A stretch of 21,550 nt of DNA from a virus. This document shows, piece by piece, positions 805 to 14,295 of the stretch (positions are counted from its first letter, which is position 1; each line of letters begins with the position of its first letter). Both the position numbers and the translations under genes were made by a program. The notes below the pieces were generated by a model. The model made no database searches, was not told where the DNA came from, and saw only the letters and a program-made list of their open reading frames with translations. Where the stretch lies: IMG/VR virus record IMGVR_UViG_3300048038_000034, positions 1 through 21,550 of that record. One strand, written 5' to 3'.

Positions 805-2206
805 GGTACTCCTTTCCCCGGCTACGGAAATCCTCTTCGGCGGGGCCGCCGGCCCAGGCAAGAGCCACCTTCTGCGGGTAGCTGCCATCATCTGGTGCAA
901 CGACATCCCCGGCCTCCAGGTCTACCTCATCCGGAGAACCTACCCCGAACTCATGTCGAACCACATGGAAGGCCCCAAGTCCCTGCGGGCCCTCCTTGCC
1001 CCCTGGGTAGAACTAAAGAAGGTGAAGATCGCCGACAACGACATCCGGTTCCTCCACAACGGCTCGGCAATCCATTTACGTCATTGCCAATACGAACAGG
1101 ACATGTACAGCTTCCAGGGCTCGGAGATCCATTGCCTCATGATCGACGAACTGACCTCGTTCACCAGCACGATCTACGAGTTCCTGAGATCACGCGTGAG
1201 GATGACCGGCATGACCGTACCCGAACGGTGGAAAGGACGATTCCCCCGCATCGTCTGCGGCTCGAACCCGGGGAACATCGGCCACAACTGGGTGAAGGCC
1301 GCCTTCATCGACCCCGGGACGAACATCCACAAGACGAGCGAGGCGGAAGGCGGCATGCTCCGCCAGTTCATCCCCGCCGTGATGGAGGACAACCCCGACC
1401 TGATCAGGGACGATCCGGGCTACCGCGGACGCCTCCACGGCCTGAACGACAAGGCCCTCGTGAGGGCCATGGAGTTCGGAGACTGGGACATGGTGGCGGG
1501 AGGAGCCATCTCCGACCTCTGGGACCGCAAGCGCCACGTTATACCCCCCTTCCCCATACCCCGGGACTGGTACGTGGACCGGAGCTTCGACTGGGGAAGT
1601 TCCCGGCCCTTCTCCCTTGGGTGGTGGGCTGAGTCCGACGGAAGCCCAGCGACGCTACCCGGAAACCACCAGAAGACCTGGCCCAAGGGGACCCTCTTCA
1701 GGATCGCGGAGTGGTACGGCTGGACCGGCAAACCCGACGAAGGCTGCAGGCTGGAGGATACGGAGATAGGCAAAGGCATGAAGGAGCGCGAAGCCTCGAT
1801 CCGGGAGAACCTGAAGGTCAGGCGGATACATCCCGGACCCGCGGACGGCATGATCTTCGAGACCCAGCCCGGGAAACCCTCGATCGCCCAGGGCATCGAG
1901 CAAGGCTACGGGAAACAGGACCTCTTCTACCCCGCGGACAAGAGGCCCGGATCACGAATAAAGCGGCTCGCCATATTCCGGAGACTCCTTTCGGCGAGCG
2001 GGGAGGAACCCATGGAGTTGCCGGGGATCTTCTTCTTCGACACCTGCGTCCACGGGGCGATCCGAACCATCCCCACCCTGCCCCGGGACATCCGCAACGC
2101 CGAGGACATCGATACCAGGGCCGAGGACCATGCCTGGGACGACATAGGCTACCGTATAACCACGGCAAGGCGACTCACGAGCTCGATCCGAGTGGAGGCC
2201 GCATGA
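773..2206 (+). CDS. terL: Phage terminase large subunit (ATPase-nuclease)
   Basis: Motor and nuclease that cuts concatemeric DNA and drives it into the procapsid through the portal. The start is ATG 773, with AGGACGACGAGG just upstream; an upstream in-frame TTG at 698 lies deep inside terS. The protein is 477 aa. Residues 23-31 (GGAAGPGKS) form the Walker A motif, K30 being the lysine, and LMIDE with D125-E126 the Walker B motif. The C-terminal half carries the RNase H-like nuclease signature: FDWGSS with its acidic residue after DRS, HPGPAD further on, and EDHAWDD near the end. The stop overlaps the portal start as ATGA at 2203-2206. Length and motif order are normal for TerL. Confidence 0.95.
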   Translation: MQLSLHPRQAEVLLSPATEILFGGAAGPGKSHLLRVAAIIWCNDIPGLQVYLIRRTYPELMSNHMEGPKSLRALLAPWVELKKVKIADNDIRFLHNGSAIHLRHCQYEQDMYSFQGSEIHCLMIDELTSFTSTIYEFLRSRVRMTGMTVPERWKGRFPRIVCGSNPGNIGHNWVKAAFIDPGTNIHKTSEAEGGMLRQFIPAVMEDNPDLIRDDPGYRGRLHGLNDKALVRAMEFGDWDMVAGGAISDLWDRKRHVIPPFPIPRDWYVDRSFDWGSSRPFSLGWWAESDGSPATLPGNHQKTWPKGTLFRIAEWYGWTGKPDEGCRLEDTEIGKGMKEREASIRENLKVRRIHPGPADGMIFETQPGKPSIAQGIEQGYGKQDLFYPADKRPGSRIKRLAIFRRLLSASGEEPMELPGIFFFDTCVHGAIRTIPTLPRDIRNAEDIDTRAEDHAWDDIGYRITTARRLTSSIRVEAA

Positions 2207-3660
2207 ACCCGGAAGAGAACGGGATAACCGCGGTCCACCCCGAATACCGTAAGTACCATCCCCTGTGGAAACGCTGCAGGGACGTCCTTGAAGGATCGGA
2301 CGCCGTGAAAGCCGCCAGGGAACTCTACCTCCCCCGCCTCCCCGGCCAGGGCCTCGAAGGCTACGAGCATTACCTGGCTCGATCGATCTTCTTCAACATC
2401 ACGGGCAAGACCCTCGAGCTCTACGTGAGCATGATCTACTCCAAGGCCGTGACGATCCATGGGCCGGAGGAAAGCTCGCCACTCATCACGGACTGCGACC
2501 TTCAGGGAACCTCGCTTTCGGAATTCATGGAGGACGTGACCACGGACGTGATCGGTGTGGGAAGATGTGGCGTCCTCGTAGACTACTCAGGCCTCATCCA
2601 GAGCGGGATGAGCATCGCCGACGCCGAGCGTGAGGAAGCGCGCCCCTACCTCGTGCGCTATCCGCCAGAGAGCATCACAAACTGGCATTCAGGACGGCAC
2701 GGGGGAAGAACGATTCTGGACAGGGTCGTCCTCAAGGAAAAAACAGGAGAAGAGAGCGACGAGGAACTCCAATACCGGGAACTCGTCATCACGGAAGGAT
2801 CCTACAACGTCAGGATCTGGAGGAAGCTCAACCTCGTGAAGAAGGAGACCTGGGTAATCACCAAGGACCTCACCCCCTTGCGGAATGGGGAACCCATCGC
2901 GGAACTGCCCTTCTTCTTCGTCGACCCCGAATGCGGAAGCCCCCGGTGCCGCAAGCCACCCCTCCTCGACCTCGTGGACATCAACTTGAGCCACTACCGA
3001 ACCATGGCAGACCTCGAGCACGGACGCTTCCATTCAGGCCTGCCGACACCCATCTTCGCGGGCTTCAACTTCCAGGAGGACGAGGCAGTCAAGCTCGGCT
3101 CCACCGAAGGCATCAGCTCGAACCTCCCCGAGGCCAAGGCCTACTACCTTGAATTCTCCGGCAAGGGACTCGAGGCCCTCGAAAAGGCGGCCGAGCAGAA
3201 GGAGGCCTGGATGGTCCAGCTCGGCGCGGGGCTCCTCGACTCAAGCCAATCCAATCGAGAGGCCGCGGAGACCTTGGCCATCCGCCGATCCGGCGCCAAC
3301 GCCACCGTGGGCAGGATGGCCATGTCGGTATCCGAGAGCATGACCAAGGCCCTCGCCTTCCTCTGCTCCTGGGCCGGACTGGGTTCAAAGGACGTCAGGG
3401 TCCAACTGACGACCGAATACCTCCCCTACCTCCTGGACCCCCAAGAGATCAGCGTCCTCCACGAAGCCGTGAAGTCCGGCGACTACCGGCGGGTGGACTG
3501 GCTCTCCAGGTTAAAAGCCGCGGGAATCCTTGGCCAGGACCTTGCGCCTGAGCGCATCGATCGGGAGTTGAAAGAGAAGTCAAAGTCCGAGGAGAAGCCA
3601 AAAGTCGGATTCACTGCGGAACCTGCAAACGCTGGAACAGGGACGGCACAGGCGGCTTGA
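2203..3660 (+). CDS. Portal protein (DUF4055 family)
   Basis: Dodecameric ring at the capsid vertex through which DNA passes. The 485-aa product starts at ATG 2203, within the ATGA overlap with terL; the frame stays open back to 1711, but that part is a shadow of terL. The N-terminus (ITAVHPEY, then DAVKAARELYLPRL and IFFNITGKTLE) matches the DUF4055 family, annotated as phage portal-like. The C-terminal part has a long helical region (EALEKAAEQKEAWM, LLDSSQSNREAAETLA) expected for wing/stem helices, then a Lys/Glu-rich tail. Its position after terL agrees. The next phage gene should be a minor head or scaffold gene, but foreign-looking sequence starts directly after the stop. Confidence 0.88.
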   Translation: MNPEENGITAVHPEYRKYHPLWKRCRDVLEGSDAVKAARELYLPRLPGQGLEGYEHYLARSIFFNITGKTLELYVSMIYSKAVTIHGPEESSPLITDCDLQGTSLSEFMEDVTTDVIGVGRCGVLVDYSGLIQSGMSIADAEREEARPYLVRYPPESITNWHSGRHGGRTILDRVVLKEKTGEESDEELQYRELVITEGSYNVRIWRKLNLVKKETWVITKDLTPLRNGEPIAELPFFFVDPECGSPRCRKPPLLDLVDINLSHYRTMADLEHGRFHSGLPTPIFAGFNFQEDEAVKLGSTEGISSNLPEAKAYYLEFSGKGLEALEKAAEQKEAWMVQLGAGLLDSSQSNREAAETLAIRRSGANATVGRMAMSVSESMTKALAFLCSWAGLGSKDVRVQLTTEYLPYLLDPQEISVLHEAVKSGDYRRVDWLSRLKAAGILGQDLAPERIDRELKEKSKSEEKPKVGFTAEPANAGTGTAQAA

Positions 3661-3772: not shown

Positions 3773-5995
3773 TTAATCTATTATTGCATATTCTTTCAGA
3801 ATATCAACAGCTCCAGGACTAGTATATTGAGCATTTTTAACCATTTCTATAATTAGATCAATATTTGTAACTATCATTTTATGCTTTATAACATAATCAA
3901 CAAATTCTGTGAGATCTGATTTGTATAAAGAATAGAAAAGTAATGGCTCTTTCCACCAATCACTTTCTAAGTATTTTACAATATTATGTATTTCTATATT
4001 TTTATATAAATACATTCCTGCTAAATGTTCTTGAAAAGAAAGATGACCAAAAGAATATGTATTATTAGATTCTTTATTAAGAACACCATTATTTATAATA
4101 AGATCATCTATTAAATCACTAAATTCAATTTGATATCCAAAGTTTCCTAGTGATTTTTCAAATACTTCTTTTATTTCTACCATTTTCATTATTCTTCGTC
4201 TTTCAGGGAAACTATGTAAAGTAAAAGCTAGATTCATCAAAAATCGCTTTTTTGCATCAACATTATCAATTAATGTTCTTTTAATTCCTCTTGAATGGTC
4301 CCATTTCCATAATAACAAATCCAATCGATGTTCATATATTTCTACACGATTTGTTGGTCGAAAACCATTTTCAATTAATACAGCAATGATTGTAGCCAAT
4401 AATGGAACTCGTGAATTTTCATCTATATCTGGATATTCGGTACATAATTCTATTGCCTTTTTATAATATTCTTTAGAATTATTAAACCATTTTTGAAAAA
4501 ATTCATTTCGACTTTCTTTACTAAATGCTGGAAGTTTTATAACAGGAAATAATTTTCTTAATGGTGTTGTATATGCACAACGTGAAGTAACAATTATATT
4601 TTTATATTTTGAATAATTCTTAATAATTATTTCTGAAATATCTTCTGAGGCTTCATCAAGTCCATCGAGTAACAATATTGTTTCTTCACTTTTCCAAGAT
4701 TCAGGATATTTAAACCAAGTATTAGCACTTATAATTTTACATAGGTCATTCTCTTCATTGTTTTTTTGTAGAGCGAAACAAGGAATATAAAGAGTTTTCA
4801 TTGACTTTTCCAATAGCCTAATTGCTAACATTTTTAGTAATGTAGTTTTCCCATGTCCTGCATCAGCTTCAATAATAAGTGTTTTCGATATATTTAGCAA
4901 TTCTTGAGGTTCATTAAGTGTTATTCTCAACTCTTTAATGTTATTCTGAATTTCTTCTTTAATAAACATATTTTTATTATCATTTCTATAATGAGAAAGT
5001 ATTTTTCGAATTACAAAAAAATTATCAAGCAATTCTTTAATAAATTGAACATTACCACTAATTTCTTTAGGACATACTTTTATTTTTTCTAATACTTCTG
5101 ATTTAAGTGTTGTTAATCTATTTTTATATTCAATATCAATTATTACTTCAACCCTAGCTTCCTCATCTGGTACAGTTTCAGCAACATCAATTTCATTTAT
5201 AATAGCTATTGAAAATTCAATTGAATAGTTTTCAAAAAATGCACATAAAGCTTCATTATTTGAATCCTTCCTTAATATCTCTATTTGTTTCGATCTATTT
5301 TCACTATTTTTAATTGCTTTCCTAGTTATAGCATTTTTAGATATATTCGTGACATCTATTTGTCCGTTAAGAAATAACCAAACATATTCAGCACTTGGAG
5401 AGATATCTGTATCAACAAAAAATTGGCTTATATACTTGTCTACAGAAATATCAAAGGCTCGTCCTTCATAATGTTTTGATAATTTTTCAATTATTGCTTG
5501 TATTTCATCTGATTTAATTGACAAATATTTATATTTGACTTCTGGTATATGCTCACTAATAAGTTCACATAATTCTTCTCCTGCAATTAACTTTATATTT
5601 TGTCTTGAAAGCCTTTCAAGGTTATCTGATACCTGCCTACGATTGGACGCAGAAAATGCAGAAGAAGATATACACCAGACTTCATTAGGAAAGACTTTCG
5701 TACCATCAAAGAGAGTTACTCCTTCAGTTTTAGCTAGTTCACAAGGATTTACAACTAAAGAAATGAATCGTGATCCATAAGAAAGAGAAACTGCTTTTAC
5801 TTGTATACATAATATATGTTGCCTATGCAGATTATCAGTGCCAACTGATATAATATCCCTTCCAGCTTCTACTGAAGAATGTGTATATTCTACTTTTCCT
5901 GGGTGCAATATTCTAACTAACGGTATTATTACTTCCAAAGTTAATGTTTCTTCAGGTAACTTTGATATCTCCTCATGCAATTTTGAAGTACTCAT
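3773..5995 (-). CDS. NACHT NTPase with N-terminal Mrr-like nuclease domain (NLR-like antiphage protein)
   Basis: Protein of 740 aa, probably cytosolic. Residues about 15-110 look like a PD-(D/E)XK domain of the Mrr type: E43-A-G-R-D47 followed by LCIQVK with Q65 and K67. The middle is a NACHT domain: Walker A AGHGKTT with K383, and Walker B LLLDGLDE with D444, D447 and E448. A helical region follows with SFGHLSFQEHLAG around H651, typical of the C-terminal side of NACHT modules. Known bacterial NACHT/STAND proteins sense a phage component and activate an effector domain, here presumably DNA cleavage. ATG 5995 has GGAG (6001-6004) 5 nt upstream. The gene is far more AT-rich than its neighbours and opposes the phage operon, so it was probably acquired separately. 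A short C-terminal sensor region compared with Avs proteins argues for the bNACHT-like class. Confidence 0.85.
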   Translation of the reverse strand: MSTSKLHEEISKLPEETLTLEVIIPLVRILHPGKVEYTHSSVEAGRDIISVGTDNLHRQHILCIQVKAVSLSYGSRFISLVVNPCELAKTEGVTLFDGTKVFPNEVWCISSSAFSASNRRQVSDNLERLSRQNIKLIAGEELCELISEHIPEVKYKYLSIKSDEIQAIIEKLSKHYEGRAFDISVDKYISQFFVDTDISPSAEYVWLFLNGQIDVTNISKNAITRKAIKNSENRSKQIEILRKDSNNEALCAFFENYSIEFSIAIINEIDVAETVPDEEARVEVIIDIEYKNRLTTLKSEVLEKIKVCPKEISGNVQFIKELLDNFFVIRKILSHYRNDNKNMFIKEEIQNNIKELRITLNEPQELLNISKTLIIEADAGHGKTTLLKMLAIRLLEKSMKTLYIPCFALQKNNEENDLCKIISANTWFKYPESWKSEETILLLDGLDEASEDISEIIIKNYSKYKNIIVTSRCAYTTPLRKLFPVIKLPAFSKESRNEFFQKWFNNSKEYYKKAIELCTEYPDIDENSRVPLLATIIAVLIENGFRPTNRVEIYEHRLDLLLWKWDHSRGIKRTLIDNVDAKKRFLMNLAFTLHSFPERRRIMKMVEIKEVFEKSLGNFGYQIEFSDLIDDLIINNGVLNKESNNTYSFGHLSFQEHLAGMYLYKNIEIHNIVKYLESDWWKEPLLFYSLYKSDLTEFVDYVIKHKMIVTNIDLIIEMVKNAQYTSPGAVDILKEYAIID

Positions 5996-6511
5996 CAGCT
6001 CTCCATAATATGATAATTATTCAATAAGATAGCCCACCTGACACGAAATATTTGTAATAATATGAACTACTTTATAATTGTTGTACTCTGCAAATAGAAC
6101 ATACGCAATCATTATTTTATTCCATTAACATAGATACCGTACTTTTACTATAATCTCAAGCTTGAAATATATGAAAACCATATATTACAAATACTTAAAG
6201 TATCCTTAAAGGCTTAAAAAAGTAGATTCGGGTTGAAAGAATACACTTTTACACCCTAGAAGGGACAAATACTCGTTTAATGCAGTATTCAATAAAAACA
6301 GAAAAACTAACGCTAGGAAGGTGGTAGGATTACGGTATATGATCTGAATATATTTAAGCCTGTATTACAAAATGTGATATAAGTTATTTTATACCTTGTT
6401 CTTAGAAAAATTGGTAGCCGTACTTGGCGTAAGTAGAAATTCATAAATGGCACCAAGATAAACAAGGAGATCCCACAGAATGCCATAAAGACTCTCCAGG
6501 GAAGACGTGGG
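5996..6511. other. AT-rich non-coding region upstream of the NACHT gene
   Basis: No supported ORF on either strand. It should hold the minus-strand promoter of the NACHT gene; several TATAAT-like hexamers exist but none has a convincing -35 partner. AATATATG (6166-6173) and CATATATT (6179-6186) form a perfect 8-bp inverted repeat around AAAAC, a possible operator. Base composition shifts towards GC from about 6480. Confidence 0.4.
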
Positions 6512-6539
6512 TTGGCAGGGAGCAAGAAAACTTTATAAA
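6512..6539 (+). promoter_or_regulatory. Sigma70-like promoter for the structured RNA
   Basis: TTGGCA (6512-6517, 5/6 match to TTGACA) and TATAAA (6534-6539, 5/6 match to TATAAT) are separated by 16 nt. The predicted start is near 6546, just before the first hairpins of the GC-rich structured block, and no ORF with a ribosome binding site follows. Confidence 0.6.
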
Positions 6540-6545
6540 GAGAAC

Positions 6546-7121
6546 AATCGGATTGACCAAGAGACTTGGCTTGAAACCTCGGCAGGAGTTCCGGCGAAGC
6601 CGGATCTCCTGCCGCCGATTTCCCTGAAGAAACTGAACTGGCTGAAGACTTGATAGGCAGGCCCCGGGTCGCCCGGAGGCTTCGTCCGGAGGACGATCCG
6701 GAGGGCGTCCCGGGGAGGACTTTAGCTGGAACCAGCCGCCTTCCCGCTTCCGGACTGGGCGAAGCCCTATCCGAAGCGGGAAGGCGGTTGGCAGGAAGGC
6801 AGGCGAGCCACAAGCCAGCAGGCTGTGGGCCGACGACAGGAGGCCTTCTGCTTGCTGGCGGCGAGCCTGCCGTGGAATTGCCTCAAGGGAGGCGATCAAG
6901 TGTATCGGGCGGCCGACGACGGGATGGATTGCCGTGGAGTCGGCCGCCCGCGGATTTACGGAAGGAACACTGATACCAGCGGGAGGACAACGCGAGGAGC
7001 CGTAGGGCTACAGGCTAAGACTGTGTACGCGAAATTTGCGCCAGCAAATTTGGGGGACCCCGAACGAAGTAAGCGCGTACACCTTTCTTAGCTGTAGCCC
7101 GGACACTCTCCGCGAAGCTGG
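6546..7121 (+). ncRNA. Candidate large structured non-coding RNA (about 580 nt)
   Basis: A chain of long, nearly perfect stems fills the block. 6557-6561/6565-6569. 6580-6588/6606-6614, continued inside by 6591-6595/6599-6603. 6662-6668/6709-6715 enclosing 6682-6687/6691-6696. 6736-6750/6773-6787, extended outward by 6732-6735/6788-6791 and inward by 6757-6760/6764-6767. 6798-6804/6865-6871 enclosing 6814-6820/6853-6859. 6877-6884/6889-6896. 6906-6917/6939-6950. 7005-7013/7092-7100, continued by 7015-7020/7086-7091, 7023-7031/7074-7082 and 7032-7039/7044-7051. 6976-6980 (CCAGC) can pair with 7117-7121 (GCTGG) to close the last domain. G-T pairs at 6735/6788 and 6879/6894 are wobble pairs only in a + strand RNA. 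Size and ornateness recall phage-borne giant RNAs (GOLLD, ROOL), but I recognise no family; RNase P, tmRNA and group II domain V signatures are absent. The 3' end is uncertain, with no U-tract. Confidence 0.65.
6828..6938 (+). repeat. Imperfect internal duplication within the structured RNA
   Basis: GGCCGACGAC occurs at 6828-6837 and 6911-6920, and TGCCGTGGA at 6868-6876 and 6930-6938, in the same order. This suggests two related domains, the second shorter. Each copy takes part in a different stem. Confidence 0.5.
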
Positions 7122-7181
7122 AAAAGATCGACCGTGATGGAAACTCCTCCACGTCTGCAAGGAATCCTCACATGATAGCTC

Positions 7182-7210
7182 TTGATAACTATACAATTGT
7201 ATAGTAATAC
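7182..7210 (+). promoter_or_regulatory. Possible promoter of the DUF72-ImuB-DnaE operon
   Basis: TTGATA (7182-7187) and TAATAC (7205-7210) are 17 nt apart. The -35 is good, the -10 poor (3/6). It would start transcription near 7217, at the second in-frame ATG of the DUF72 gene. TATAGT at 7200-7205 is a better -10 but lacks a spaced -35. Either way the promoter would lie under the palindrome. Confidence 0.35.
7188..7205. promoter_or_regulatory. 18-bp perfect palindrome, putative LexA/SOS operator
   Basis: ACTATACAATTGTATAGT is its own reverse complement over all 18 bases and ends 5 nt before ATG 7211. A dimeric repressor is the natural reader. Because the operon encodes an ImuB-DnaE mutasome, typically under LexA control, a LexA-type box is the best guess. 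The sequence is not the E. coli or Bacillus consensus, so the identity of the repressor is inferred. Confidence 0.65.
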
Positions 7211-8026
7211 ATGATTATGATCATCTCCGAACCCTTACCGGATATCAGAATAGGGACATCCGGCTACGACTATCCTGAATGGGAGGGGGTTTTCTACCCA
7301 AGGGGAATCGGCCGAAAAGAGTACCTTGGATTGTACAGCCAGTCCTTCGGTTCGCTCGAGCTCAACTTTAGCTACTACGGTATGCCAAAGGCTGAAAACA
7401 TCAGTAAGCTCCTTGCGCAAACGAGAAAGCCTATCGACTTTTCGATTAAGGCGAACCAGTCACTCACCCACAAGGTAGACCCCGCGACGTGGCAAGACAG
7501 TGTAGCCGAGTTCTCGAAGGGAATCGCGCCCCTCCAGGAAGCCGGGCGCCTGTGCGCCGTCCTACTCGAGTTTCCGTACTCCTTCCACTACCAAGACGAC
7601 GAACGGCGGTATCTCGACAAGATATTGAAGGCCTTGTCCTCGTTCCCGCTCGTGGTGGAGTTCCGCGGCGCCGACTGGTTCAACGCTCGGGTGATTGACG
7701 GCCTCAAGGAGCGAAGGGTCGGGCTCTGTTCAGTAGATATCCCGCGACTCGAAGGACTGCCTCCGGTATCTGATCTCGTCACCTCGGATATAGCCTACGT
7801 CCGATTCCATGGCCGCAATGACAAGGCATGGTGGAATGGCGACTCAGGCACCCGGTACGAGTACCTCTACTCGAAGGACGAGTTCTCCGCGTGGGTGCCC
7901 AGGCTTGAGGCCATGAGCACGCTGGCAAAGAAGGTGCGGGTTTACTTCAACAACCATCGACGCGGCGATGCGCCCGTGAATGCGCAAGAACTCGTGGCTC
8001 TCGCAACCGCCGCGAAACTCATTTAG
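7211..8026 (+). CDS. DUF72 (YecE-like) TIM-barrel protein
   Basis: 271-aa protein. Family signatures are clear: IGTSGYDYPEWEGVFYP near the N-terminus, LELNFSYYGMP, VVEFRGADWF in the middle, YVRFHGRN, and VYFNNHRRGDAPVNAQEL at the C-terminus. DUF72 proteins form a TIM barrel of unsettled function. The start is ATG 7211 or the in-frame ATG 7217; neither has a Shine-Dalgarno sequence because the palindrome occupies the upstream region. It is first in an operon with an ImuB-like protein (9-nt gap) and a DnaE-type polymerase, the place where ImuA would sit in a standard imuA-imuB-dnaE2 cassette. A role in damage tolerance is inferred from this linkage only. Confidence 0.88.
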   Translation: MIMIISEPLPDIRIGTSGYDYPEWEGVFYPRGIGRKEYLGLYSQSFGSLELNFSYYGMPKAENISKLLAQTRKPIDFSIKANQSLTHKVDPATWQDSVAEFSKGIAPLQEAGRLCAVLLEFPYSFHYQDDERRYLDKILKALSSFPLVVEFRGADWFNARVIDGLKERRVGLCSVDIPRLEGLPPVSDLVTSDIAYVRFHGRNDKAWWNGDSGTRYEYLYSKDEFSAWVPRLEAMSTLAKKVRVYFNNHRRGDAPVNAQELVALATAAKLI

Positions 8027-8035
8027 GGCGAGGCG

Positions 8036-9202
8036 ATGTCATCAGGCACAATCCTGCATGTCAACGCCGTCGGCATCATGGCGGCGCTCGAGGAGGGGCT
8101 CGACCAATCGCTTCGCGGTAGGCCCTTCGTCGTGGCGAACCTGGACGCGCCGCGCTCAGTCGTCCTCGACATCTCGCCTCAGGCGCATCGTGAAGGGCTT
8201 CGGAGAGGCATGGTCCTCTCGCTTGCGCGGAACCTGTGCAAGGACCTTGAGGTCAAGGCTCCTCGGCCAGGACTCTACGGCACTGCTGAGGAGAGGCTCT
8301 GGCGTATTGGCCTCGAGTACACGCCTCTCGTGGAACGAGCGGGGCGGGGCCATCTTTTCATCGACCTTCGCGGCACTACCCGCCTTTTCGGCGCGCCTGA
8401 GGACGCCGCCCAGAAACTCAGGAAAGCCATCAAGGAAGAGACCGGCCTATCCCCAAGCATTGCGCTTTCGACGAACAAGACCGTGAGCAAGGTCGCGACG
8501 CGGGTGTTCCGCCCCGCTGGATTCGTGGCCCTCTCGCCGAATGAAGAGAGCGGGCTCATACGCATGCAGCCCGTAGGACTCCTTCCCGGCGTAGGCCCCG
8601 CACTGTTGGGACGCTTCGGCCTCCTGGACATCGACGAAATAGGCGACTTGGCGGACCTCTCGGAATGCGAAGCGCGAGCCATTGGACCGCGAGGTCCCGA
8701 ACTCGTGACAAGGGCTCAGGGGGTAGATACATCGCCCGTAGACCCGGAACCTCCCGAGCGGCGGGCCGTGTCCGGTGAAGTCGTATTTGAGCCCGATATA
8801 ATCGAATCAGAAGTCCTGAGGCTGAGGCTTGAAAGCCTCGTCACGGAGCTCGGCTTCGCACTGCGCAAGGAGGGCCGAGGGGCCAAGCGGGCAGCCGTCG
8901 AGCTTGGGTACACCGACGGTGTACGAAGCTTCGGGATGGCAAGGATCGCGCGGGTCGTCGCGAGAGATGATGAGCTTGCCTCTATTGCCAAGATAGCGCT
9001 TGAAGCCGCTCATAAGCGCCGTGTAAGGATCCGGCTACTGAAGGTTCGGCTCTCGGAGATCGAGTCTGCGGGGCCAGAACTTGACCTTTTTGAACCAGAA
9101 GATGCGAAGCTATCGAAGCTCCAGACCGCCCTGGATAAAATTCACTGCCGCTTCGGATTCGCCGCTCTAGAATCGTGTGCGGCCCTCACGGTGAAGGCAT
9201 AG
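8036..9202 (+). CDS. imuB: ImuB-like, catalytically inactive Y-family polymerase homologue
   Basis: 388 aa with a Y-family layout: an N-terminal palm (ILHVNAVGIMAALE), LFIDLRGTTRLFG (residues 107-119), a helix-hairpin-helix thumb (LLPGVGPALLGRFGLLDIDEIGDL), a little-finger region, and a C-terminal tail. The three catalytic carboxylates of DinB are missing: the first Asp is N10, and the Asp-Glu pair of SLDE aligns with G105-H106. This is the pattern of ImuB, a non-catalytic adaptor bringing an error-prone DnaE to the sliding clamp. ELDLF at 348-352 fits the QLxLF clamp-binding motif. AGGGCGAGG just upstream is a good ribosome binding site. The C-terminal ALDKIHCRFG resembles DinB, so descent from a DinB-like enzyme is possible. 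Shorter than typical ImuB. Confidence 0.83.
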   Translation: MSSGTILHVNAVGIMAALEEGLDQSLRGRPFVVANLDAPRSVVLDISPQAHREGLRRGMVLSLARNLCKDLEVKAPRPGLYGTAEERLWRIGLEYTPLVERAGRGHLFIDLRGTTRLFGAPEDAAQKLRKAIKEETGLSPSIALSTNKTVSKVATRVFRPAGFVALSPNEESGLIRMQPVGLLPGVGPALLGRFGLLDIDEIGDLADLSECEARAIGPRGPELVTRAQGVDTSPVDPEPPERRAVSGEVVFEPDIIESEVLRLRLESLVTELGFALRKEGRGAKRAAVELGYTDGVRSFGMARIARVVARDDELASIAKIALEAAHKRRVRIRLLKVRLSEIESAGPELDLFEPEDAKLSKLQTALDKIHCRFGFAALESCAALTVKA

Positions 9203-9208
9203 ACCGGC

Positions 9209-12136
9209 ATGTTGGCGCCCCTCTTGGTCTCATCAACGTATTCCTTCCACTACGGCGTCATCCCCCCGATTGAACTCGTCAGGAGAGTAAAAGAATCGGG
9301 GTATAGCGCCATTGCCTTGACGGATCGAAACGGTGTTTACGGACTCCCCACGTTCATCGAGGCGTGTGAAAGTCTGGGATTGAAGCCGCTCCTTGGAACG
9401 GAGTTCATCTACGATGGCGGGCGGGCCATCCTTATCGCGGAGACTGATAGAGGATTCTCAAGAGTGACACGCCTTCTCACAGAACGTGCGGCGGGGCCCT
9501 TCGATGCACGTGCCGCAATCCTGGCCGACCCAAGGGGCCTTGCGATCATCTCCGATGACTTCGAGCTTCTTGAAGTGGGAAAGGGATGCGTCGGACTCTA
9601 TGGCCTCGCCTCACCCTCCAACAAACCGTCATGGCGACGACTCAAGGCCTCTGGCGCTCCCTGCATCGCAACCGGAGAGGTTCGTTTCCTGGACTCGCCG
9701 GACAGGGATCTTCAACGACTTCTTGTAGCCATTGGAGCTAAGAAGACGGTCTCGGAAGTCAGCGATGAAGAACTCGCCCGTGAAGATTCTTTGCTTATAG
9801 GGCCAGACACCTTGCGAACGGTCTACGCCGACCTACTCGAGGCGCTCGATGCGAACGAGGCCCTCGTTGAGCGTGTTACGAAGACAAGCCTCTTCGGTGG
9901 CTTCGTCTTTCCGAGCTACACGACCTCGAAAGCTCAGGGAAGTGCGTCAACATTCCTCCGCTCCCTCGTTTATGAAGGCGCCATGGTGCGTTATGGAAGC
10001 ATCGGCGAGACGATCAGTAAACGTATCGAGTACGAACTCGGGATCATTGAGGCGAAAGGCTTCTCGGACTACTTCCTTGTCGTGAGGGAGATCGCACGGA
10101 AGGTGTCGAGAACATGCGGACGAGGCAGCGCGGCCGCGAGCATCGTATCGTATTGCCTCGGGATAACGGACGTGGACCCCATCCGACACAATCTTTACTT
10201 CGAGCGCTTCCTCAATCCTGGACGTAAAGACCCTCCGGACATTGACGTGGACTTTGCGTGGGACGAACGCGACGAGTTGCTCGCCAAGGTACTAGCCCAG
10301 TACGGCGAGGCGCACGCTGCCCGAGTGGCCAATCACGTCTGCTTCCAGTCGCGGTCGGCACTACGGGAAGCGGCCCATGCCTACGGCATGCCCGACGGCG
10401 AGATAGGAGCCTTCGAGCGCTCGATGACGATCGACGCTGAGAAGGCAATGAGCGAGGCCGATGAAACCTGGAAAGAGATCGCGAGCCTTGCGTATAGAAT
10501 TGTGGGCTTTCCCCGTCATCTTGGCGTTCATTCCGGGGGAATCATCATCGTGCCCGATGAGCTGTCCAGCCATGTGCCGCTCGAAAGGACCGGAACTGGT
10601 ATCAGGGTCACGGCCTGGGACAAGGAAGGCGTGGAGGACGCGGGGCTCGTCAAGATCGACCTCCTCGGCAATCGCTCCTTGGCGGTCGTCCGCGACGCCC
10701 TTGCGAACCTCCGCGAGAATGGAATCGAGATAGACGAGGCCACTTGGAAGCCCATAGACGATTCAGCGACCGTTGAAATGATATCGCAGGGCGACACTAT
10801 GGGGGTCTTCTATGTCGAGTCCCCAGCGATGCGTCTCCTTCAGAAGAAGACGAAAGCCGGCGACTTCGAACATCTCGTAATCCACTCGTCGATTATTCGG
10901 CCTGCGGCAAACAAGTACATCAACGAGTATGTCGATAGACTACGAGGCAAGAAGTATCCTCCGCTTCATCCGCTCCTCTCGGGGCTCTTCGATGAAAGCT
11001 ACGGGATCATGTGCTACCAGGAGGATGTCTGCAAGGCCGCCGTGGCGCTTGCGGACTTCACCCCAGCCGAAGCTGACGGCATAAGAAAGATCCTTTCAAA
11101 GAAGGATGTGAAAATCAGGCTGGAAACCTATCGCGAGAAGTTTTTCGCGGGAGCGAGGACAAAGGGCGTCAATGAGAAGACGATAGCCGATGTGTGGGCC
11201 ATGATCGAGTCGTTCTCCGGCTACAGCTTCGTAAAGGCTCACTCGGCGAGCTACGCGATGCTCTCTTTCAAGTCGGCCTTCCTTAGGAGGCATCACCCGG
11301 CTGAGTTCATGTCCGCCGTCATGTCGAACCATGGTGGCTTCTACTCCACGCTAGCATACGCGAGCGAATCGCGTAGAATGGGACTCACGCTGCTCTCTCC
11401 CGACGTGAATACCAGCGAGTTGCGCTGTCGAGGGAAAGGAAGAACCATACGGTTCGGGCTTGAGATGATCGGCTCTCTCAACGCATCGACCACCAAGAGG
11501 ATCATCGAAGAGCGCAAGCAGGGCGGCAGGTACGTAGATATTGAAGACTTCGCTCGACGGGTTCGGCCTGATAGGGATGACTCTGAAGCCCTTGTCGGAG
11601 CTGGTGCCGTAGACTCCATCTCAGGGAACCTACCCAGGTCCGTCAAGCTCATGCGGCTTTTATCGATCCTCGCGGTCAGTGAACAAAATAGCGATCAACA
11701 AGGCGAACTCTTACAGTCCGATCCTCCGACTTTATCGGCACGGAAGCACAAGCGCGAATCAGGGAGGAAGAATCTTGATTCCGAGATGCGGTACTTGGGC
11801 ACGACGTTGGAAGCCCATCCTCTTGAACTCTGGCCAAGCCTGCTGTCCTCAAGTATGCGGACACTCGGCAAAGATATACCTACCCATGTCGGACAGCGGG
11901 TCGAACTCGTCGGATGGCCGATTACGGCGAAATCCGTTCTGACATCAGAGGATGAGGCGATGGAGTTCATCTCCTTTGAAGATGAGACCGCGCTCTATGA
12001 GACGACACTCTTCCCCGAGAAGTATGAGTTATATCGGCACCTGTTATTCGAACAGCGTCCATTGCTTGTTAGGGGGCTAGTTGAAGATGATAGAGGAGCG
12101 ATCACCGTAACCATTTCGAGCATTCAGAGAGCTTAA
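9209..12136 (+). CDS. dnaE2: Error-prone DnaE-type DNA polymerase III alpha subunit
   Basis: 975 aa, shorter than replicative DnaE and close to the DnaE2/ImuC class. Order: PHP domain (about 1-200), palm and fingers, helix-hairpin-helix region, and a C-terminal OB-like fold (RVELVGWPITAK, then FEDETALYETTLFP). Catalytic acids are intact: PDIDVDF gives D346 and D348, and LVKIDLLG gives D484. GRGSAAASIVSYCLGITDVDP and FVKAHSASYA are family motifs. The N-terminal PHP metal-binding HxH is absent (SSTYSFHYG stands in its place), so PHP exonuclease activity is unlikely. It starts 6 nt after the imuB stop and acts with ImuB in translesion synthesis. DnaE1 is excluded by length and partner genes. Confidence 0.88.
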   Translation: MLAPLLVSSTYSFHYGVIPPIELVRRVKESGYSAIALTDRNGVYGLPTFIEACESLGLKPLLGTEFIYDGGRAILIAETDRGFSRVTRLLTERAAGPFDARAAILADPRGLAIISDDFELLEVGKGCVGLYGLASPSNKPSWRRLKASGAPCIATGEVRFLDSPDRDLQRLLVAIGAKKTVSEVSDEELAREDSLLIGPDTLRTVYADLLEALDANEALVERVTKTSLFGGFVFPSYTTSKAQGSASTFLRSLVYEGAMVRYGSIGETISKRIEYELGIIEAKGFSDYFLVVREIARKVSRTCGRGSAAASIVSYCLGITDVDPIRHNLYFERFLNPGRKDPPDIDVDFAWDERDELLAKVLAQYGEAHAARVANHVCFQSRSALREAAHAYGMPDGEIGAFERSMTIDAEKAMSEADETWKEIASLAYRIVGFPRHLGVHSGGIIIVPDELSSHVPLERTGTGIRVTAWDKEGVEDAGLVKIDLLGNRSLAVVRDALANLRENGIEIDEATWKPIDDSATVEMISQGDTMGVFYVESPAMRLLQKKTKAGDFEHLVIHSSIIRPAANKYINEYVDRLRGKKYPPLHPLLSGLFDESYGIMCYQEDVCKAAVALADFTPAEADGIRKILSKKDVKIRLETYREKFFAGARTKGVNEKTIADVWAMIESFSGYSFVKAHSASYAMLSFKSAFLRRHHPAEFMSAVMSNHGGFYSTLAYASESRRMGLTLLSPDVNTSELRCRGKGRTIRFGLEMIGSLNASTTKRIIEERKQGGRYVDIEDFARRVRPDRDDSEALVGAGAVDSISGNLPRSVKLMRLLSILAVSEQNSDQQGELLQSDPPTLSARKHKRESGRKNLDSEMRYLGTTLEAHPLELWPSLLSSSMRTLGKDIPTHVGQRVELVGWPITAKSVLTSEDEAMEFISFEDETALYETTLFPEKYELYRHLLFEQRPLLVRGLVEDDRGAITVTISSIQRA

Positions 12137-12138
12137 AC

Positions 12139-12399
12139 TCAGCAGTGATGGCTGTCCTGAAACGTGGATAGATCGTCGAGCGAGTATTCAGACCTTTCAC
12201 CCACTTTACAAAAGTAACTGTCTACTTTATCATACACTGATCGAGCCAACCACTCGATCGCTCCGCACAGGACGGAATATTCCTGCCCGCCCGTTCCGGT
12301 AGGTACCGCGCATTTCCTTCCGGAATGATAGACCTTCTTAAAAACCTTGCGCACGGCCGACGGGGCGGATATCACCCCCGACGATACAAGTTGTTCCAT
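12139..12399 (-). CDS. Small hypothetical protein, doubtful
   Basis: 86-codon minus-strand ORF starting at ATG 12399 and ending 2 nt after the dnaE stop, tail to tail. The product is a plausible soluble protein (EYSVLCGAIEWLARSVYDK, then a Cys/His-rich end SHHC) with reasonable codon choice. I recognise no family. Against it: no ribosome binding site, an ORF that runs on as an antisense shadow of the scaffold gene, and overlap with the promoter-like sequence at 12205-12233. It could also be the remnant of a larger gene. Confidence 0.28.
   Translation of the reverse strand: MEQLVSSGVISAPSAVRKVFKKVYHSGRKCAVPTGTGGQEYSVLCGAIEWLARSVYDKVDSYFCKVGERSEYSLDDLSTFQDSHHC
12205..12233 (+). promoter_or_regulatory. 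Sigma70-like promoter ahead of the head operon
   Basis: TTTACA (12205-12210, 5/6) and TATCAT (12228-12233, 5/6) with a 17-nt spacer. Predicted start near 12240, about 158 nt before the scaffold ATG. It would restart head-gene transcription downstream of the cargo. Confidence 0.5.
12239..12259. repeat. Inverted repeat in the leader of the head operon
   Basis: GATCGAG (12239-12245) and CTCGATC (12253-12259) around a 7-nt loop CCAACCA. It begins at the predicted transcription start, so it could be a 5' leader hairpin or an operator. No U-tract follows. Confidence 0.35.
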
Positions 12400-13135
12400 G
12401 ACGAGTTTAAAAGACATCATCACGCATCTGAAGTTCGAGCTCGAGAAAGGCGAGAACGGAGACCGGGAACTCATAACCACCCTGGTGGACAGGATCGAGC
12501 CCATCGCCTCCCGGGACTGGGCCAGGATCAAGAGGCTCGAGCGGAGGACCGAAGCCTTCTCGGGCAAGTCCCCTGAGGAGCTCGAGAAGATAATAAGCGA
12601 GACCGATTCGCTGAAAGCCGAACTCGAAACCGCGAAAAACCTTCTCGCCGACAAGGAAAAGCTCCTCGAAGCTGCCACACGACAAAACACCGAAAAGGAA
12701 ACCCTTCTCACCAGAAGCCTCAATGAGGAGAAAGCCGCGGTGACGAGGCTCCTCCTCGACTCCGGCCTCACAGCCGAACTCTCCAAGGCCAACGTGAAGC
12801 CATCGCTGATCGGAGCAGCAAAGGCCCTCATCCGGGAGAAAGGAATCCTTTCGGTCGAGGGTGAGGGCGAGATCCGGACGGCGGTGGCCAGGATCAGAAA
12901 GGACGGCATCGAGCAGAAACAGAACCTTCCGGACTGGGTGAAGGACTTTCTGACATCGGAGGAAGGGAAGGAGTTCATCGCCGCAAAGGAGAACGCCGGG
13001 GGAGGAGCAGGAGAACACCGGGCGCCAGCTCCTGGAGATGTGACGACCGGCATGGTGCCTGAGCAATTCTGGGGCTTACCCGCAAAGGAACGCGCAGCAT
13101 TTATCGCGCATGGAGGCACGCTCAATCACGATTGA
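12398..13135 (+). CDS. Scaffold-like head assembly protein
   Basis: 245-aa, highly charged, mostly helical protein. Residues about 50-115 are coiled-coil-like (EELEKIISETDSLKAELE, then KNLLADKEKLLEAATRQN). The C-terminus has a Gly/Ala-rich linker and a short conserved-looking end (EQFWGLPAKERAAFI). Composition and position directly before the major capsid gene fit an internal scaffolding protein that guides procapsid assembly and is then lost. ATG 12398 is chosen because upstream TTG 12347 lacks a ribosome binding site; ATG 12398 itself has only a weak one. Assignment rests on context and composition. Confidence 0.65.
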   Translation: MTSLKDIITHLKFELEKGENGDRELITTLVDRIEPIASRDWARIKRLERRTEAFSGKSPEELEKIISETDSLKAELETAKNLLADKEKLLEAATRQNTEKETLLTRSLNEEKAAVTRLLLDSGLTAELSKANVKPSLIGAAKALIREKGILSVEGEGEIRTAVARIRKDGIEQKQNLPDWVKDFLTSEEGKEFIAAKENAGGGAGEHRAPAPGDVTTGMVPEQFWGLPAKERAAFIAHGGTLNHD

Positions 13136-13152
13136 GCTGCTTAAACAAAAAG

Positions 13153-14295
13153 ATGTCCAACCTATTTACGGCGCTTGCGCCGATTCTGTTTTCCGCGGCC
13201 CAGGAAGTGTCGGCGGAGGACACGGGGGCCATGCAGTCGGTGACGATGAACTTCGACGACAAGCAGGTGGCCAAGGACGATGTGGTGGCAGTCCCGATCG
13301 CCTCGGGGGGAACGCCTGAGGACTTCATCCCCGGGAACGTGACGCCTCAGGGAGATTCGGACTCGGCCTCGACGGTGAACGTGAAGATCACGGCCTCGAA
13401 GAAGCGGAGCTGGCACCTTACGGGGGAGCAGCGCCGAAGCCTTGAGAACTCGGGCACGGACAAGGAGTGGCTGAGGCTCAAGCTCATGCAGGAGATGCGC
13501 TCCCTGCGCAACGGCGCGGAGGCTGACTGCGTGACCGCGGTCGTCCATGGGGCTTCGCGGGCCGTGGGCACGGCGGGCTCGACGCCCTTCGGCTCCTCCC
13601 TGGACGAACTCATCGCGGTCAGGCGGGTGCTGAAGGACAACGGCTGTGCGATGGCGGATCCCCAGTTCGTCTGCGACTCCGCCGCCGAGACGAACCTCCT
13701 CAAGCTCTCAGCGATCCAGCAAGCCTACGCGGCGGGAAGCGACGAGGAACGAAGGAGCGGCGTGATCAAGCGGCAGTTCGGCTTTCAGATCCGCACCAGC
13801 GCCCAGATCGCCCAACATGTGAAGGGAACCGGGGCGAGCTACCTCACCAACGCGGCAACCGCGATGGCCAAGGGGGACGTCAGCACCACCCTCTCGGGCG
13901 CCTCGGGCACGGGGACCATCAAGGAAGGGGACATCCTGGCATTTGGGATCGACCCCAACCGCTACATCAACCACACCGAGATAGCCACCATGCAGCAGCT
14001 CCTCACGATCGGTCGGCCCGGGGTGCGGCAGAACATCCCGACCTCGACCGCGATCACGATCGGGGACAGCTACACCCCCTGCCTGGCCTTCGAGCGGGGC
14101 GCCGTGGTGGGCATTATGCGGCCGCCCGTCATGCCCGACAACCCGACCATGATCCAGGCGATCATCTCGGACCTGCGCGGACTCTCCTATCTGCTCCTTG
14201 AGATCGCCCAATATGGACAGATCACCTGGGAACTCCACCTCGCCTGGGGATTCAAGGTGGTGACCCACGAACACGTGGCCCTGCTCCTGGGCTAG
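13153..14295 (+). CDS. Major capsid protein, P22 coat protein-like
   Basis: 380-aa shell protein with the HK97 fold expected for the P22-coat family. The N-terminus SNLFTALAPILFSAAQEVS, the middle KKRSWHLTGEQRRSLENSG, then EMRSLRNGAEADC, SAQIAQHVKGTGASYL, LTIGRPGVRQ, GDSYTPCLAFERGAVV and the C-terminal YGQITWELHLAWGFKVV are the recurring motifs of this family. ATG 13153 aligns with the usual start; an upstream TTG at 13132 would add seven residues and overlaps the previous stop. The ribosome binding site is weak. No propeptide or protease gene is seen, consistent with P22-like assembly using a scaffold without cleavage. Confidence 0.88.
   Translation: MSNLFTALAPILFSAAQEVSAEDTGAMQSVTMNFDDKQVAKDDVVAVPIASGGTPEDFIPGNVTPQGDSDSASTVNVKITASKKRSWHLTGEQRRSLENSGTDKEWLRLKLMQEMRSLRNGAEADCVTAVVHGASRAVGTAGSTPFGSSLDELIAVRRVLKDNGCAMADPQFVCDSAAETNLLKLSAIQQAYAAGSDEERRSGVIKRQFGFQIRTSAQIAQHVKGTGASYLTNAATAMAKGDVSTTLSGASGTGTIKEGDILAFGIDPNRYINHTEIATMQQLLTIGRPGVRQNIPTSTAITIGDSYTPCLAFERGAVVGIMRPPVMPDNPTMIQAIISDLRGLSYLLLEIAQYGQITWELHLAWGFKVVTHEHVALLLG

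Follow-up and report, generated by a model that had tools for sequence, protein, structure and literature searches.

A phage fragment with cargo between portal and scaffold genes

The virus record IMGVR_UViG_3300048038_000034 is a phage fragment of 21,550 nt, the whole of which was analyzed and is referred to here as the window. It contains genes for the terminase large subunit (698-2206), a DUF4055 portal protein (about 2203-3660), a scaffold protein (12347-13135) and the major head protein (13132-14295), after which tail and virion genes follow. The cargo in the interval from portal to scaffold amounts to about 8.7 kb and comprises a NACHT ATPase gene on the minus strand (3773-5995), identified by its Pfam NACHT match; an ORF-free block dense in hairpins, with its core at 6546-7121; and a DUF72-ImuB-DnaE2 operon on the plus strand (7211-12136). 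In the related phage L101, the portal and coat genes are separated by only about 1.2 kb, and the cargo is thus an insertion relative to that phage. The nearest relatives of the DUF72 cassette are chromosomal copies in Spirochaetota MAGs, with DUF72 identities of up to 71%. Because Spirochaetota chromosomes hold these nearest relatives, we infer that a spirochaete host is likely and that the tailed phage carrying the block probably infects spirochaetes. Searches of viral contigs with the DUF72, DnaE2, terminase, coat, portal and NACHT proteins returned L092 (5125-8225) as the only close phage; its terminase is 71% identical and its DNA 70% identical over terminase and portal. The L092 contig stops within the portal gene, short of the cargo site.

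The NACHT/STAND ATPase gene has a GC content of 24 to 34% within a phage of roughly 60% GC and is likely a recent acquisition. It fell into no PADLOC family, and a single weak relative was found in 247 Spirochaetota genomes.

The DUF72 operon begins with a promoter at 7182-7219 on the plus strand, reading TTGATA-ACTATACAATTGTATAG-TAATAC-ATGATT-ATG, in which ACTATACAATTGTATAG is a 17-bp palindromic operator that fills the entire spacer between the −35 and −10 elements (7182-7207). The start codon follows 6 bases past the −10 element, and this arrangement places the start of DUF72 at the ATG at 7217 rather than at 7211. The same layout of −35 element, 17-bp palindrome, −10 element and start was present at 16 other DUF72 loci, L005, L007, L025, L044 and L073 among them, and aligned well in most. 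Judged from the sequence, 7182-7219 would be a repressor-controlled promoter giving rise to a leaderless mRNA for a mutasome operon.

Since the operon is served by a conserved promoter of its own, we treat the hairpin block as a separate unit. Its position directly upstream of the operon and on the same strand would also suit a long 5′ leader or attenuator of DUF72-ImuB-DnaE2, a reading that we consider very improbable: the −35/operator/−10 arrangement is common to other loci, and the chromosomal copies that we read have no such block upstream. What precedes DUF72 in these copies is unrelated sequence, namely, coding regions and, in L007, an IS200-like Y1 transposase gene.

The mutasome cassette of the phage is complete, comprising DUF72, ImuB and DnaE2. 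These three genes are also found together in many chromosomes of Spirochaetota and Desulfobacterota and in the prophage contigs L003 and L004, where an ORF for an XRE/LexA-like regulator lies divergently upstream. The transposase gene adjoining the cassette in L007 (7307-7837) is of the RAYT type (Pfam PF01797). Reading by eye revealed a similar ORF in L073 (about 7381-7880) and, in L021 (about 10840-11200), palindromes accompanied by a transposase-like frame.

Folding and coding potential of the block

The plus strand of 6546-7121 folded with a minimum free energy of −321.6 kcal/mol, corresponding to a z-score of −11.2 against dinucleotide shuffles, none of which (0 of 100) folded as well. 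By comparison, 42 control windows of 576 nt from the same phage gave a mean z-score of −0.4 (standard deviation, 1.2; minimum, −3.7). Local windows of 150 nt across 6675-7124 ranged from −3.5 to −7.7, and no other part of the window had as high a density of exact stems as the block, which also ranked near the top among 174 fetched loci. In the predicted fold, seven GC-rich hairpins or arms, no two alike, stand in a row joined by purine-rich linkers, and the predicted pair probability of most arms is 0.85 to 1.0, with many values near 1. The first-pass annotation had reported dense stems at this place, and both the comparison with control windows and the high-probability arms agree with it.

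At the 5′ side, a 14-bp hairpin at 6581-6613 (pair probability, 0.99) may be enclosed in a domain spanning 6489-6634, whose outer helix, 6489-6503/6620-6634, has a probability of about 0.7. It is followed by a two-tier hairpin at 6662-6715 (0.99 to 1.00) and by the longest hairpin, at 6732-6791 (0.98), which comprises 26 pairs, 19-nt arms that are 95% complementary and a C(GAA)G triloop. Further downstream lie a long two-part arm at 6798-6871 (0.98 to 1.00), a stem at 6877-6896 and a hairpin at 6906-6950 (0.96) with a perfect 12-bp stem, its arms being 100% complementary. The series ends with a long 3′ arm at 6991-7114 that contains an inner three-way junction (0.87 to 0.99); the region around it, 6975-7124, has a local z-score of −7.7. 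Three short loops form triloops of the sequence C(GAA)G or C(GGA)G.

The ends of the structure are less sharply defined than this core. An additional helix, 6321-6345/7125-7152, closed the whole region from 6321 to 7152 in the predicted folds, and if real, it would make the RNA about 0.83 kb long. We consider this outer helix doubtful: in the tightest test, 7 of 500 shuffles did as well, and with wider flanks the helix did not reach significance. A start at exactly 6546, as originally annotated, was therefore not established: the dense core does lie there, but pairing extends to 6489 and possibly over the entire 6321-7152 interval.

Coding signal was absent from the block in all six frames, with codon log-likelihoods of −0.18 to −0.27 per codon versus +0.13 to +0.31 for phage genes, and no ORF in the block had a Pfam match, in keeping with the earlier statement that it contains no credible ORF. 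That the block is an atypical protein gene or the remnant of one, on either strand, is barely credible: ORFs of up to 166 aa do overlap the block, but besides scoring negatively throughout and belonging to no Pfam family, they have a GC3 of 0.49 to 0.64, compared with 0.66 to 0.87 in phage genes. Folding far beyond that of shuffled sequence thus occurs at this site together with an absence of coding signal, as expected of a large structured noncoding RNA.

Strand, promoter-like sites and the search for relatives of the block

The minus strand of the block also folded strongly, at −291.3 kcal/mol and a z-score of −9.3, and the predicted structure contains 10 G-U pairs on the plus strand versus 6 on the minus strand. 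The claim that G-T pairs fix the strand was accordingly not borne out. Unpaired positions on the plus strand were purine rich (77 A versus 38 T and 57 G versus 24 C), giving an unpaired purine fraction of 0.70, compared with a mean of 0.57 (standard deviation, 0.11) in control windows. Taken by itself, this bias would seem to settle the strand, but since other plus-strand windows share it in part, it is only a modest argument. Taken together, the lower energy, the larger number of G-U pairs and the purine-rich unpaired positions favor the plus strand in these predictions, although they do not fix it.

The block had been proposed to have its own promoter. The promoter-like sequence in question, TTGGCA-16-TATAAA at 6512-6539 on the plus strand, is present, but it fails the −10 rule of our scan, and a sequence farther upstream on the same strand, TTAACA-18-TATAAT at 6125-6154, matches better (11 of 12 consensus positions). 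The scan detected 3 sites in the region versus 2.2 expected in shuffles, so that neither can be said to stand above chance. No intrinsic terminator was found in the scan of the block region.

Strong folding on both strands is also what a cluster of palindromes acting at the level of double- or single-stranded DNA would give, either as REP/BIME-like elements or as a recombination or replication site. This is the main rival to a structured RNA. REP/BIME elements are likewise close-packed GC-rich hairpins, triloops of the C(GAA)G and C(GGA)G type are very stable in DNA, and the Y1 transposase beside the same cassette in L007 belongs to the class that mobilizes REP elements. In contrast to such elements, the hairpins of the block are all different. 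No palindrome was repeated within the block beyond pairs of chance size, none recurred in the window, and none recurred in the searched Spirochaetota genomes, which may not include the phage's true host. There were no attC core sites (RYYYAAC or GTTRRRY) on either strand of 6401-7200, and no transposase was found among the identified genes of the window. Because a repeated unit and attC core sites are both missing, we regard the palindrome cluster as the less likely reading, and the block does not appear to be a scatter of genomic repeats.

The neighboring ATPase gene offers another explanation, in which a structured RNA from either strand serves as a sensor, trigger or inhibitor of the NACHT protein in a two-part phage defense module. 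The block and the NACHT gene are neighbors within the same cargo region, and the 550-base AT-rich spacer between them contains promoter-like matches in both directions. However, the NACHT gene is AT rich and the block is GC rich, a contrast that suggests separate origins, and PADLOC names no such system. We therefore consider a link to the NACHT protein distinctly improbable.

Relatives of the block were sought in phages and plasmids, in several hundred genomes of Spirochaetota and in related phage contigs. Using blastn, we obtained only chance matches in phages and plasmids, in 27 Spirochaetota and other records behind the fetched loci, and in 393 sampled Spirochaetota genomes; in 23 genomes of the closest family, the single match was to the DUF72 operator and none was to the block. 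Neither did nhmmer reveal a homologue. Three single-sequence covariance models, each run on the fetched loci and on 228 to 393 genomes, produced a few weak matches, all in or at ORFs, and no homologue. Without a positive control, an empty result of this kind carries little weight.

Several matches were inspected and rejected. Blastn matches in seven Spirochaetota genomes (E values of 0.0005 to 0.007) were taken as chance; in the six that we inspected, they were 23 to 58 bp long, with surroundings that appeared mostly coding by eye. The covariance matches in L184 and L186, with E values per genome of 0.01 and 0.001 over about 230 to 260 genomes, lie inside or almost inside ORFs and were likewise attributed to chance. 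A 16-mer pattern scan yielded five contigs with no similarity beyond the 16-mer, and a scan for a 33-base hairpin pattern yielded zero matches. Hairpin-rich spots in L007, L011, L021 and L164 were rejected as relatives after reading, as they proved to be coding sequence, tRNA regions, palindromes by a transposase-like frame, and tandem repeats.

A candidate large RNA compared with known classes

The block folds strongly, its stems are diverse and it carries no coding signal, all of which favors reading it as an independent large structured noncoding RNA of an undescribed family. We give this reading an even chance, its uncertainty arising from the missing homologues, the near-symmetric folding of the two strands, the lack of a promoter above chance and the lack of a terminator. 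A large structured RNA, the core of the original annotation, is hence still the best reading, whereas a dedicated promoter, a precise start at 6546 and the strand were not established. At present, the block is best described as an orphan with a strong predicted folding signal and no relative found in the genomes and contigs searched.

Were the reading correct, the block would be transcribed independently, most probably from the plus strand, into one RNA of about 0.6 to 0.85 kb, carried as accessory cargo in the portal-scaffold interval of a tailed Spirochaetota phage. The folded molecule would act in trans, its six or seven rigid GC-rich arms and the purine-rich linkers between them forming a scaffold, and it might assemble with its own copies or with protein. 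A self-assembling particle, proposed solely by analogy with those of ROOL and GOLLD, is the trans-acting mechanism that we consider most likely from this analysis, although in itself it is rather improbable.

Few classes of very large structured RNA are known in bacteria and phages, and their functions are poorly understood. Rfam scans of the block with E values up to 10 matched no family, including the group I and group II intron models, and weak matches far under the gathering scores (P35, BM-sr0117 and others) were set aside as chance. OLE resembles the block in being about 600 nt long and ornately structured; it differs in that the block does not match the OLE model and is set in phage cargo.

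ROOL and GOLLD had been named as the nearest classes by size and setting, with no match recognized, and that description agrees with our results. GOLLD (RF02032) is, like the block, phage borne, very large and rich in stems, although the likeness in size holds only with the doubtful outer helix included; in neither the Rfam scans nor a direct search did the block match RF02032, which models the conserved 3′ region. ROOL (RF03087) shares with the block its size (the model has 574 positions), a phage or prophage setting, many stems and the absence of an ORF. Here, too, the block gave no match, either in the Rfam scans or in a direct search, whose controls stayed silent as well. GOLLD and ROOL are often found close to tRNA islands in phages (PMC12286853), whereas no tRNA was found in the window, a 21.5-kb fragment. 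Both RNAs form RNA-only cages, that of ROOL being a homo-octamer (PMC12286853).

We tentatively suggest, as a possibility that we rate below even, that the block represents a hitherto undescribed family of large, ornate RNAs in spirochaete phages, of which it would be the first known member, lying beside NACHT and DnaE2/ImuB genes and possibly forming an RNA-only particle with no sequence relationship to ROOL or GOLLD. If so, the neighboring NACHT ATPase and mutasome would provide testable guesses at its function, and another sequence-unrelated class in addition to ROOL and GOLLD would suggest that phages have repeatedly acquired such RNAs.
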